Positions 530-5,272 of a stretch of DNA of 5,272 nt are shown here, in pieces. The notes under the pieces were generated by a model that did not search any database, was not told the origin of the DNA, and saw only the letters and a program-made list of their open reading frames with translations. Every line of letters starts with the position of its first letter. Within the stretch, counting starts at the first letter, position 1. A program made the translations under genes and the position numbers. The DNA is from Planctomycetota bacterium (GTDB lineage: Bacteria > Planctomycetota > Planctomycetia > Pirellulales > UBA7805): the NCBI GenBank assembly GCA_030605285.1, contig JAUWIQ010000181.1, forward strand, positions 1 to 5,272, given 5' to 3'.

Positions 530-1642
530 ATGATCACATCGACACGGAAGCCGTCAAAAACAGACCGTCCCTCCCCTTCGGACAACCGCATGACAAAAAA
601 AACCACCAAGGGCAAGTCCGCCACTGCGAAACGGCAGGTCGCGAAACGGCAGGTCGCTGAGAGTACTCCGGCGGGTGATGCCTTGCTCAAGAACAATCCC
701 CAGTTGAAGAACACGCTTCAGCAGATAGAAAAGGAATTCGGTGAGGGGGCCATCATGCCCCTCGGTGCTTCCCAGCGGGGCCGTATCCAGGGCATCTCGA
801 CGGGCTGTCTTTCACTCGATTTGGCCCGCGGTGGCCAGGGTATTCCCCGGGGTCGTATCATTGAGATGTTTGGTCCCGAATCGAGCGGCAAGACAACGCT
901 CGACCTGCACGTGGTTGCCCAAGCACAGGGCGCGGGCGGCATTGCCGCTTTTGTGGATGCAGAACATGCGTTGGATCCGAGTTGGGCAAAAAAGCTCGGC
1001 GTCGAGTTGGATACGCTCCTGGTTTCCCAGCCCAATCACGGCGAGCAAGCGATGAACATTTGTGAAATGCTGATTCGCTCGAACGCGGTCGACGTGATCG
1101 TGATTGACTCGGTTGCGGCCCTGATCCCCCAGAAAGAATTAGAGGGTGAGATTGGCGATTCTCATGTCGGATTGCAGGCGAGACTGATGAGTCAGTCGAT
1201 GCGAAAGCTGACCGGAGCGATTGCCAAGAGTAAAACCTGCGTGATTTTCATCAATCAGATCCGTGAGAAGATAGGCGTGATGTTCGGTAGTCCGGAAACG
1301 ACCCCAGGCGGACGGGCACTGAAGTTTTATTCGGCTTGCCGCATTGATGTCCGAAAGATCGGACAGATCAAGGACGGTGAAGAGGTGGTGGGCCAGCGCG
1401 TACGCGGCAAGGTCGTGAAGAATAAGGTGGCCCCTCCATTCCGTCTGGCTGAATTCGATATGATGTACGCCGGAGGCATAAGTTACGAGGGAGATATTCT
1501 CGATCTCGCGTTAGCTGCCAATCAGGTGGTACGAAGCGGTGCCTGGTTCCGCTATGGAGACATCCAGTTGGGACAGGGACGGGAAAAGACGCGGCAATTT
1601 CTCAAGGAAAATCCTGAGATTACGAAAAAGTTGCGAGAATAA
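530..1642 (+). CDS. recA: RecA recombinase, with basic N-terminal extension and shortened C-terminus
   Basis: RecA is the cytoplasmic ATP-dependent recombinase that forms filaments on single-stranded DNA, drives strand exchange and triggers LexA self-cleavage. The 370-residue product has every core motif: Walker [10 protein letters not shown] (115-123), the catalytic glutamate in VDAEHALDP (Glu145), Walker B DVIVIDS (188-194), the L1 region around [14 protein letters not shown] (205-218), and [13 protein letters not shown] (241-253) leading into DNA-binding loop L2. The core aligns to E. coli RecA without gaps that I noticed. Two features are odd. First, about 55 residues precede the conserved start near [15 protein letters not shown]; they are rich in Lys, Arg, Ser and Thr and contain the duplicated block AKRQV. 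Second, the protein ends at [11 protein letters not shown], inside the helix that in E. coli reads DNPETAKEIEKKVRE, so the last 30 or so residues and the acidic tail are missing. An acidic tail is encoded in frame just past the stop (1643-1819). Start 530 is chosen for its Shine-Dalgarno sequence; ATG 590 is the alternative (350 residues). The family call is certain, the exact ends less so. Confidence 0.98.
626..655 (+). repeat. Perfect 15-bp tandem duplication inside recA
   Basis: GCGAAACGGCAGGTC occurs twice back to back (626-640 and 641-655), encoding AKRQV twice at residues 33-42. It lies in the poorly conserved basic N-terminal extension, where gaining or losing a unit keeps the frame. 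It looks like a recent slippage or duplication product. Confidence 0.9.
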
Positions 1643-1819
1643 ATTCTGGCGATCGGTGGCCACCACGATATGCTGGCGGGCGATCCAGCAGAGTCGCCAG
1701 AAATGACGGAGCAGTCGGAAGCGCAGTCGGAATCGCAGTCGGAAGCCACGGAGCAGTCGGAATCGCAGTCGGGAGCCAAGGAGCAGCGACCGGAAAAGGA
1801 GACGGTCTCGACAGCGTGA
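1643..1819 (+). other. In-frame acidic continuation of recA beyond its stop codon
   Basis: After the recA TAA (1640-1642) the same frame stays open for 58 codons to TGA at 1817-1819. The first part reads ILAIGGHHDMLAGDPAESPE. The rest is a Glu/Gln/Ser-rich low-complexity tail with QSEA/QSES units, ending EKETVSTA. It has 11 Glu and 2 Asp against 2 Lys and 1 Arg, so it is strongly acidic, as RecA C-terminal tails usually are. Replacing the stop by Lys (AAA) would restore LREKILA, which lines up with EKKVRE of the E. coli terminal helix. I infer that this was, or still is, the RecA C-terminus, lost by a nonsense change, hidden by a base error, or made by readthrough (429 residues). ATG 1703 lies within it but has no Shine-Dalgarno sequence, so a separate small gene is less likely. 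Confidence 0.6.
1712..1783 (+). repeat. Tandem repeats of CAGTCGGAA-type units
   Basis: Five units begin with CAGTCGG (1712, 1724, 1736, 1754, 1766), spaced 12 or 18 nt apart. At the higher level, 1724-1753 and 1754-1783 are two 30-nt copies differing at 2 positions. All spacings are multiples of three, so in the recA frame they encode QSE[A/S] units with TE or KE joints. This preserved periodicity fits a protein-coding low-complexity tail. Confidence 0.85.
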
Positions 1820-1992: not shown

Positions 1993-3483
1993 ATGAGCGC
2001 AACACTCTTTTTCCATCCGTCCGGCCGTTTGTGGCTGTTGGGTGTTTTTGCCTTGCTGGCTTTTGTGGTTCGGACTCCAGCTTCTGCCAGGGCCGACGAA
2101 AGTTCGGCATTGGCGACGGCAACCGCACTCGAAAAAGTTCTCGTCGAGGCCATTGCGCGCGGTGAAAAGTCGGTCGTGGCGATTGCTATTTTTCGTTCCG
2201 GAGGACTGGCTGATGGCAACCTGATCCTGGGGCGGCAGCGATTCCGTGTCGAAAATAAAAAAAGTGTGCCACCGCTGGACGCCATTCCGGATTCCTTTGC
2301 CACCGGGGTGGTCGTGGATCGGGCGGGACTGATTCTCACAAACCAGCATATACTTCGAGGCAAGCCGGAGGAGACACGGATCTTCATTCGTCAGGCCCAT
2401 CGTCCCTTCTGGGATGAAGTGACGGTGAAGGCCGCCGATCCCTATAGTGATCTGGCGATCCTGGAATTCGTGAATGCCGAGATCCAGGAACTGAAACTGC
2501 AGCCGATCGTATTTGGGGATGCCAAGAACTTGCGCAAGGGACAACATGTGATTACCTTGGGAAATCCCTACGCGATTGCCCGTGATGGGCAGGTGAGTGC
2601 CGGTTGGGGGATTGTTTCGAATCTGCGTCGCCGCTTGCCACCGCAGCTCGGCAAATCGGCGGCAGAGGCCAAGCCGACCCTGCATCACTTTGGGACGTTA
2701 ATTCAGACCGATGCTAAACTCAATCTGGGTACCAGTGGGGGTCCGTTGTTGAATTTGCAGGGGGAGATGATCGGGCTCAATACCTCGTTGGCGGCACTTT
2801 CCGGTTACGAACAATCCGCCGGGTATGCGATCGCAGTCGATACCTTCTTCAAACGCACGGTGAAACTCTTGTCCCAGGGTCGTGAAGTCGAGTATGGCTT
2901 TCTGGGCATCGGCCCCGAGCAACTCCCAGAACGCAATCGCCGGCAGGGCGATCGTGGCGTGCGGGTCGGTCGTGTCATTCGGGGAGCACCCGCCTGGGGT
3001 TTGTTACGCAGCGGAGACGTGGTGACGCATATCGAGGGAGACGAGATTGTAACCCTGGCGGATTTGATGCTGCTGATCGGTCGCCAACCGGCCGGTGTTC
3101 CCATTGAGCTGACGATTCGCCGCCGGGATCAAGAAATAAGTCTCTCCGTAGAACTCACGAAAAATCGTGTGGTCGGAGATAAGGTCATTACCAAGCGGCC
3201 ACCTGCCTGGCGGGGGCTCCGCGTCGAATATCCCGCTGCGATGCGTTCGCTGCAGTTTGCCACGCAGATTCCCTCTCGCTGCGTTGTTGTTCGTGAGGTG
3301 GAGCCACAGAGTCCGGCTGCGAACGCGGGTCTACAGCCCGGGATGCAAATTAACCGTGTCGGCGACTTGCCCGTCCGTACGCCTCGGGAGTTTGCCCAGG
3401 CAACTGCGCAGAACGCCGGTGAGGTACGGATCGGGATTCAAAATGCCGCCTCGGGTGCCCCTGAATTTGTTGTGCTGCCGTAG
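1993..3483 (+). CDS. Exported HtrA/Deg-family serine protease with two PDZ domains
   Basis: This is a trypsin-like HtrA/Deg protease expected to degrade or refold damaged proteins in the envelope. The 496-residue product starts with a signal peptide: a short n-region with Arg12, a hydrophobic core at about 13-26, and a likely signal peptidase I site after ARA (residue 34). The protease domain (about 45-295) has the full triad: His119 in LTNQHIL, Asp153 in DPYSDLAIL and Ser248 in NLGTSGGPL. Thr247 replaces the more usual Asn of GNSGG. Between GIVSN (206-210) and LIQTD (236-240) lies a stretch of about 25 residues rich in Arg, Pro and Lys, longer than in DegP as I remember it. Two PDZ domains follow, at about 300-388 (carboxylate loop YGFLGI) and 405-483 (loop WRGLRV), the same architecture as DegP and DegQ. 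Start ATG 1993 is the first ATG in the open frame and gives a well-formed signal peptide; the frame is open from 1915 with a TTG at 1963, and no strong Shine-Dalgarno sequence marks either. The family call is firm; assignment to degP, degQ or degS is not justified. Confidence 0.93.
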   Translation: MSATLFFHPSGRLWLLGVFALLAFVVRTPASARADESSALATATALEKVLVEAIARGEKSVVAIAIFRSGGLADGNLILGRQRFRVENKKSVPPLDAIPDSFATGVVVDRAGLILTNQHILRGKPEETRIFIRQAHRPFWDEVTVKAADPYSDLAILEFVNAEIQELKLQPIVFGDAKNLRKGQHVITLGNPYAIARDGQVSAGWGIVSNLRRRLPPQLGKSAAEAKPTLHHFGTLIQTDAKLNLGTSGGPLLNLQGEMIGLNTSLAALSGYEQSAGYAIAVDTFFKRTVKLLSQGREVEYGFLGIGPEQLPERNRRQGDRGVRVGRVIRGAPAWGLLRSGDVVTHIEGDEIVTLADLMLLIGRQPAGVPIELTIRRRDQEISLSVELTKNRVVGDKVITKRPPAWRGLRVEYPAAMRSLQFATQIPSRCVVVREVEPQSPAANAGLQPGMQINRVGDLPVRTPREFAQATAQNAGEVRIGIQNAASGAPEFVVLP

Positions 3484-3639: not shown

Positions 3640-5272
3640 ATGGAAACGGATGAACTGCGCGAAAAATATCTGAATTTCTTCGAGTCGAAGGGGCACAGTC
3701 GCCAAAGGAGCGATGTGCTGGTACCCACCTGGGATCCGTCGGTGCTTTTTACACCCGCCGGGATGAATCAGTTTAAGGACCATTTTCTTGGCAAAGTCAA
3801 ACTGGACTTCACCCGAGCAACCAGTTGCCAAAAGTGCCTCCGGACTGGGGATATTGAGAATGTTGGCCGCACGGCTTACCACCACACGTTTTTTGAGATG
3901 CTGGGAAATTTCAGCTTCGGCGATTACTTCAAACGTGAGGCTATTTGCTGGGCCTGGGAATTTTTAACGGACAAAAAATGGTTGGGGCTGGATCCGGCTA
4001 GGCTGAGCGTGAGTGTTTACAAGGAAGCTCGACAGGCGGCAGAAATCTGGCGGGATGAAGTCGGATTGTCCGACGGACGCATCGAATGGCTGGATGAAGA
4101 CGAAAATTTCTGGCCCGCCAGCGCACCCAGTCAAGGGCCGGACGGTGTTTGTGGGCCTTGTAGCGAAATTTTTTACCATGATGAAAAGGGTGGCTCGGTT
4201 GAAATATGGAATTTGGTCTTCACGCAGTTCCAGCGCGTCGGAGATCCTCCCGACAATTTGCGGCCACTGCCGAGTCAAAATATTGATACCGGGATGGGAC
4301 TTGAGCGGACGGCGGCGACCCTGCAAGGGGTCGAAACCAATTTCCACATCGACACCTTGTTGCCGATCGTAGAGGCTGCAGCCGAAGTATGCGGCAGGCA
4401 ATACCGGTACGAATCGGAGGATGGCCGCCGTCTCAGAAGGATTACCGACCACATCCGCGCTTGTGCGATGGCCATTCATGAAAATGTCTATCCAGGGGCC
4501 CAGAAAGAAAAATACGTCATTCGCCGTTTGCTTCGTCGTGCGGTTCTGGATGGACATCAAATGGGGATGCGAGAACCGTTCCTTTACCAACTGGTCCCCG
4601 CAGTGTTCGAGAAGATGAAAGCGGCCTATCCCGAAATTACGGAAACCAAGACGCGGGTGGCGGAGGTGATTCAAGGTGAGGAAGCTAATTTCTTTGGCAC
4701 AATCGATGCGGGGCTGGCGCACATTGATCGCATCTTTCAGGAGATGGAGGCCGCGGGGCGTTTGACTGTGGATGGGGCAGAAGCGGCTGAACTCTATCAG
4801 ACGTTTGGGGTGCCGGTGGAAATGTTTGAATCGATGGCTGCCGAGAACAACCTAGCCTTTGACTGGGAGGGTTACGAGCGGGCCATGCAAGAACACGGGG
4901 AGGCATCGGGCAAGGTTAGCCATGCGGTGATGGGGATCCATGGTCCGCTCGACGCGGTCAAGAAGGTTTTGCATGCGGTCGAATTTGTAGGTTACGAGAT
5001 GCTCGAAACCGAAGCCGAGCTGAAATTTATTATTGCCCAACATCAGCTCTGTGATCATCTGAAAGAGGCGGGGCATGAGTCATCGATTGGTGTGATTCTC
5101 GATCGCACTCCTTTCTATGGTGAGAGTGGTGGACAGGTGGGAGACGAAGGAGAAATTTGCGGCGAAGGTTTTCGGTTTGTTGTCTGTGACACTCAGAAAG
5201 AGGGGAATTTGCTGGTCCACACGGGTCATCTCGCCGAGGGTGAGATGACGGCTGGAATGCGCGTTGTTGCCA
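3640..5272 (+). CDS. alaS: Alanyl-tRNA synthetase, 3' end cut by the window
   Basis: AlaRS is the cytoplasmic class II synthetase that charges tRNA-Ala and hydrolyses mischarged Ser- and Gly-tRNA-Ala. The window contains 544 codons of a protein usually near 875 residues. The N-terminus METDELREKYLNFFESKGH matches the family. The catalytic domain shows LFTPAGMNQFKD (37-48), motif 2 from RATSCQKC (59-66) through HHTFFEMLGNFSFGDYF (81-97), and motif 3 in DTGMGLER (216-223). GVCGPCSEIFY (170-180) and EIWNLVFTQFQR (188-199) lie between them. The tRNA-recognition helical region follows (ITDHIRACA at 268-276, YVIRRLLRRAV at 292-302). The editing domain begins at DRTPFYGESGGQVGD (488-502). The editing-site HxxxH and Cys/His zinc ligands and the C-Ala domain lie beyond the edge, so their integrity cannot be judged. 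No frameshift or stop was found in the visible part. It probably has its own translation signal and perhaps a weak promoter in the preceding spacer. Confidence 0.97.
   Translation, partial: METDELREKYLNFFESKGHSRQRSDVLVPTWDPSVLFTPAGMNQFKDHFLGKVKLDFTRATSCQKCLRTGDIENVGRTAYHHTFFEMLGNFSFGDYFKREAICWAWEFLTDKKWLGLDPARLSVSVYKEARQAAEIWRDEVGLSDGRIEWLDEDENFWPASAPSQGPDGVCGPCSEIFYHDEKGGSVEIWNLVFTQFQRVGDPPDNLRPLPSQNIDTGMGLERTAATLQGVETNFHIDTLLPIVEAAAEVCGRQYRYESEDGRRLRRITDHIRACAMAIHENVYPGAQKEKYVIRRLLRRAVLDGHQMGMREPFLYQLVPAVFEKMKAAYPEITETKTRVAEVIQGEEANFFGTIDAGLAHIDRIFQEMEAAGRLTVDGAEAAELYQTFGVPVEMFESMAAENNLAFDWEGYERAMQEHGEASGKVSHAVMGIHGPLDAVKKVLHAVEFVGYEMLETEAELKFIIAQHQLCDHLKEAGHESSIGVILDRTPFYGESGGQVGDEGEICGEGFRFVVCDTQKEGNLLVHTGHLAEGEMTAGMRVVA

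Follow-up and report, generated by a model that had tools for sequence, protein, structure and literature searches.

The recA gene of this planctomycete contig carries an in-frame TAA that parts RecA from a genuine acidic C-terminal tail, and we lean, by judgement rather than by computation, towards a base-calling or consensus error in the contig as the source of that codon. Within the window (the whole stretch of DNA analysed, 5,272 nt), recA starts at the ATG at 530 and its frame closes at TAA 1640-1642, after [11 protein letters not shown], which leaves the tail outside the open frame. A sequence-only reading of the same DNA had described this stop, the 58 open codons behind it, and two possible RecA forms of 370 and 429 residues, and both the frame and the count (370 + 1 + 58 = 429) bear it out. 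Between 530 and 1816 there is no further in-frame stop and no frame loss. On the reading we favour, this would be an ordinary planctomycete-type recA; in its relatives translation continues across this codon, completes the last helix and goes on into a tail that is disordered and mostly acidic, and the TAA would be a single private base difference (see the table).

The translation is clearly that of a RecA. It contains the Walker A motif GPESSGKTT, matches the Pfam RecA core PF00154 at residues 59-318 with 427.7 bits (cut-off 27), and matches RecA_C (PF21096) at residues 321-369 with 68.4 bits, covering profile positions 1-49 of 57; the closest listed RecA, P0001 (a database cluster of 415 aa, ENA), reaches 68.5 bits over positions 1-53. 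P0001 has the same N-terminal extension and the same tail start and end as the window protein, and differs from it in having Glu at the stop, in lacking a 14-residue repeat stretch, and in keeping the family residues at positions 100, 125, 269, and 313. The N-terminal extension is basic, spans about 50 residues (530-680; [13 protein letters not shown]...), is common to the window RecA and its closest listed relatives, and is modelled with low confidence in P0001; one possibility is that it pairs with the acidic tail at the C-terminus.

In all five relatives compared (L125-L129), recA is likewise followed on one strand by the two-PDZ S1C protease and then alaS, and the organism names among the listed protein matches are planctomycetes without exception, most rows being nameless. 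No known RNA families were found in the window at gathering scores, and a search of 1400-2100 found no promoter-like site and, on the plus strand, no terminator-like site.

Table. Features of the window, numbered from its first letter; "relatives" are the 119 aligned RecA proteins from the best 120 of 7999 scored.
Feature	Position	Strand	Remarks
recA as read (370 aa): basic N-terminal extension (about 1-50), RecA core, and C-terminal domain in large part	530..1639	+	PF00154 and RecA_C matches; 96% identity to P0001 over 370 residues
Codon 100, Arg	827..829	+	Leu in 118/119 relatives
Codon 125, Asp	902..904	+	Two residues past GPESSGKTT; Ala in 119/119 relatives
Codon 269, Ala	1334..1336	+	Ser in 118/119 relatives
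Codon 313, Tyr	1466..1468	+	His in 119/119 relatives
In-frame TAA, seen in no other sequence examined	1640..1642	+	Sense codon in relatives (Glu in the closest, Lys commonest)
58 codons homologous to the last-helix end and acidic C-terminal tail of P0001	1643..1816	+	
Imperfect 30-nt direct repeats in the tail, in frame	1711..1782	+	Overlap the 14 residues absent from P0001
TGA closing the tail frame	1817..1819	+	Same final residues in P0001 (KETVSTA)
HtrA/S1C-type serine protease, two PDZ domains, ATG to TAG	1993..3483	+	Downstream of recA
alaS (alanyl-tRNA synthetase), first 544 codons	3640..5271	+	Continues past the window end

The openness of the frame behind the stop is unremarkable by itself, as 16% of 20,000 base shuffles of the stretch also stay open for 58 codons. 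What marks the tail as more than chance is its homology to the tail of P0001, a RecA uninterrupted at this position: identity extends to 42 of 44 aligned residues, with one 14-residue in-frame gap where P0001 lacks those residues. This alignment to the closest listed relative rules out a chance open frame. The tail holds 13 acidic and 3 Lys/Arg residues (net charge -10). The claim that the stop splits RecA from what is a real acidic tail in relatives is supported. We would not expect such in-frame preservation to last long after a real stop. The repeats within the tail may mean that RecA tail length varies with repeat number. Beyond the coding sequence, the tail-ending TGA opens a short tandem repeat, tgactgccg, in nearly three copies (1817-1841), and another locus (L096) likewise has a repetitive stretch past its recA stop.

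We found the stop in none of the relatives examined. From the best 120 of 7999 scored RecA proteins, 119 were aligned after one (P0117) was left out; the residue in the stop column is K in 73, E in 37, R in 5, Q in 2, D in 1, and L in 1, no protein ends there, and all 119 continue for at least 10 residues from that column onward. The protein left out is a 638-residue fused prediction from another relative in which RecA is joined to protease-like sequence, probably through a frame error and possibly as a real gene fusion. Of 124 loci collected, the 104 in which the recA-finding motif was present (99 distinct sequences, from planctomycetes and other phyla) were counted: none has a recA ending at the stop position, and all extend at least 10 residues past the residue preceding the stop. 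A genome search in the larger order drew 396 genomes, 367 of which matched, and the C-terminus was viewed in 30 loci and 28 regions. Among the matches listed, 31 carried an internal stop and were examined through three of the loci (L110, L119, and L123) and the 28 further regions. None of the 28 ends at the stop position or has a stop between the equivalents of residues 60 and 370; their frames end 10-35 residues further on, and those of the three loci 27-32 further on. In another match that spans a stop (G002), the TAG is the natural gene end. A natural end at KKLRE shared with relatives, followed by unrelated sequence, had been named as the outcome that would make the tail a coincidence; it was looked for and is ruled out, as the relatives examined continue past that position.

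The comparison also corrects the codon from which the stop would have come. The sequence-only reading had proposed a single AAA to TAA change and Lys in close relatives. One base does suffice, since the nearest genome has a Glu codon that differs from TAA by a single base; Lys in the closest relatives does not stand, because Glu occupies the position in P0001-P0005 and in five genomes compared as DNA, and Lys is the commonest residue only across all 119 proteins from the best 120 of 7999. From the stop column onward, the net charge of these 119 ranges from -11 to +1 (108 negative, 4 neutral, and 7 positive), and an acidic tail is therefore usual in this set, not universal.

In an AlphaFold2 model of P0001, built together with 44 relatives, the last long helix spans residues 362-375, which agrees with the earlier suggestion that the stop lies inside it. 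The mean pLDDT of the model is 68.8 overall, 94 for residues 361-370, and 83 for 371-380, and residues 384-415 fall below 50. Only 9 of the 14 predicted helix residues would remain before the stop, so the loss would exceed the flexible tail. E. coli RecA, which belongs to the same family as P0001 (the P0001 sequence matches RecA chains in the PDB), has an acidic C-terminus whose removal alters DNA binding, and the acidic tail of the relatives probably tempers DNA binding in the same way. The C-terminal deletion mutants made of the E. coli protein reportedly lose mostly the disordered tail, whereas the window stop would also remove predicted helix residues 371-375. A simple hyperactive tail-less RecA, as had been suggested, is thus doubtful, because the end of the last helix would go as well and because the same gene departs from its family at four near-invariant sites.

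These four departures (see the table) fall within a set of 194 columns with a conservation of 95% or more in the 119 relatives from the best 120 of 7999, columns at which P0001-P0005 show none; 8 of the 119 have four or more, gaps included, and the four in the window are therefore not extreme by number alone. In alaS, codon 130 (4027-4029) is a private departure, reading Ala against Asp in all 120 relatives; a departure at alaS codon 213 was left out of the count because it is common to P0121-P0123. When derived residues were polarised with outgroups (P0026 and P0028 left out for recA), the window had 8 in recA with its tail, 3 in the protease, and 2 in alaS, against 2, 4, and 1 in the nearest relatives (P0001, P0241, and P0121, respectively), which may be different organisms. 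Six of the window changes lie at columns with an outgroup conservation of 90% or more; five of them are in recA (including the stop), one is in alaS, and none is in the protease, and the nearest relatives have two such changes. At the 95% conservation level, recA has 5 changes in 195 columns, the stop column being added by hand, and alaS 1 in 290 (post hoc Fisher P 0.04), a clustering that fits recA decay as well as it fits uneven read depth.

By type, five of the six window changes at conserved columns exchange A and C or G and T (post hoc binomial P 0.018). Both such changes in the nearest relatives are swaps of this class too, and when the more distant alaS relative P0122 is put in place, none of its three alaS conserved-column changes is. 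Excerpts of one report on Illumina sequencing (PMC4381044) state that A and C are read with one laser and G and T with the other, and that in one MiSeq amplicon data set A was most often replaced by C, C by A, and G by T, although T most often became C. With an Illumina platform assumed, the swap pattern is weak evidence of error. We favour an error because no relative examined ends at this position, the tail is preserved in frame, the gene has four further departures, and the changes belong largely to the A/C or G/T swap class.

A recent, real nonsense mutation is an alternative that we take seriously, if tentatively. It would leave a 370-residue RecA whose last helix is cut short and whose acidic tail is gone, be it an unfit allele carried within a population or a step in recA decay. 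The concentration of five of the six conserved-column changes in recA, among them a charged residue two positions past the Walker A motif, speaks for it, as does the 14-residue in-frame difference from P0001, which implies some real divergence of the contig at the tail; a natural recA mutant strain of another bacterium is also on record, according to excerpts of PMC2483709. Against a real mutation stand the intact frame from 530 to 1816, a tail still nearly identical to that of P0001 where the two align, and a stop common to no relative examined. Relative to the nearest genome with DNA (L125), recA has a dN of 0.083 and a dS of 1.26 over 392 aligned codons, TAA excluded, and has therefore been under long-run purifying selection over the aligned gene taken as a whole; estimates for L126-L129 were missing, saturated, or near saturation. 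Both sequencing error and real truncation had been raised at the outset, and they remain the leading explanations.

Readthrough of the TAA, programmed or leaky, which would yield a tail-less form of 370 residues and one of 429 residues with a regulatory tail, is in our estimate very improbable. The frame past the stop does match a real RecA tail, and the arrangement resembles bacterial stop-codon readthrough as excerpts of PMC11126739 present it, with coding sequence left open behind an in-frame stop. The same excerpts record that readthrough occurs in E. coli and that 6 of the 15 genes detected in one proteome study end in TAA; in E. coli reporters, however, the order of leakiness was TGA > TAG > TAA, which makes the stop in the window the least leaky type. 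The window differs from that system further in having no notable structure behind the stop: the 100 nt from 1637 fold with a z of -0.54, a level that 57 of 200 shuffles equal or better. Nor is the stop kept in relatives (0/119 from the best 120 of 7999, 0/104, and 0/28), and the conservation of the tail needs no readthrough because relatives translate it directly through a sense codon. The proposal that readthrough tunes RecA is thus not supported, as the stop is absent from the relatives examined, the codon is TAA, and no accompanying signal was found. A related account, in which the TAA is real, the lineage makes mainly tail-less RecA with a little full-length protein by leakage, termination sets the dosage of the tail, and the four changes at near-invariant sites are co-adaptations, strikes us as similarly far-fetched.

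It is just as hard to credit that translation from an internal ATG at 1670 yields the tail as a free-standing acidic peptide of 49 residues. An ATG-started open frame is present (1670-1819), yet in close relatives this Met is an internal residue of an unbroken RecA (HHDML in P0001 and HDML in P0002-P0006), and this ATG therefore needs no peptide to explain it. The lack of a promoter-like site in 1400-2100 also counts against a separate peptide, although re-initiation on one mRNA would need none.

The original observation is right, and the biology underlying it is probably ordinary: a familiar protein, with a tail of a familiar kind, is broken by a stop private to this contig. The case illustrates that a single base peculiar to one contig can mimic a regulatory device, and most of the question was settled by comparison, that is, by asking whether the stop is shared by relatives and whether the tail is. 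If the stop is real, this would be a natural RecA cut within its C-terminal domain, and it would offer a way into the function of the acidic tail in planctomycetes.
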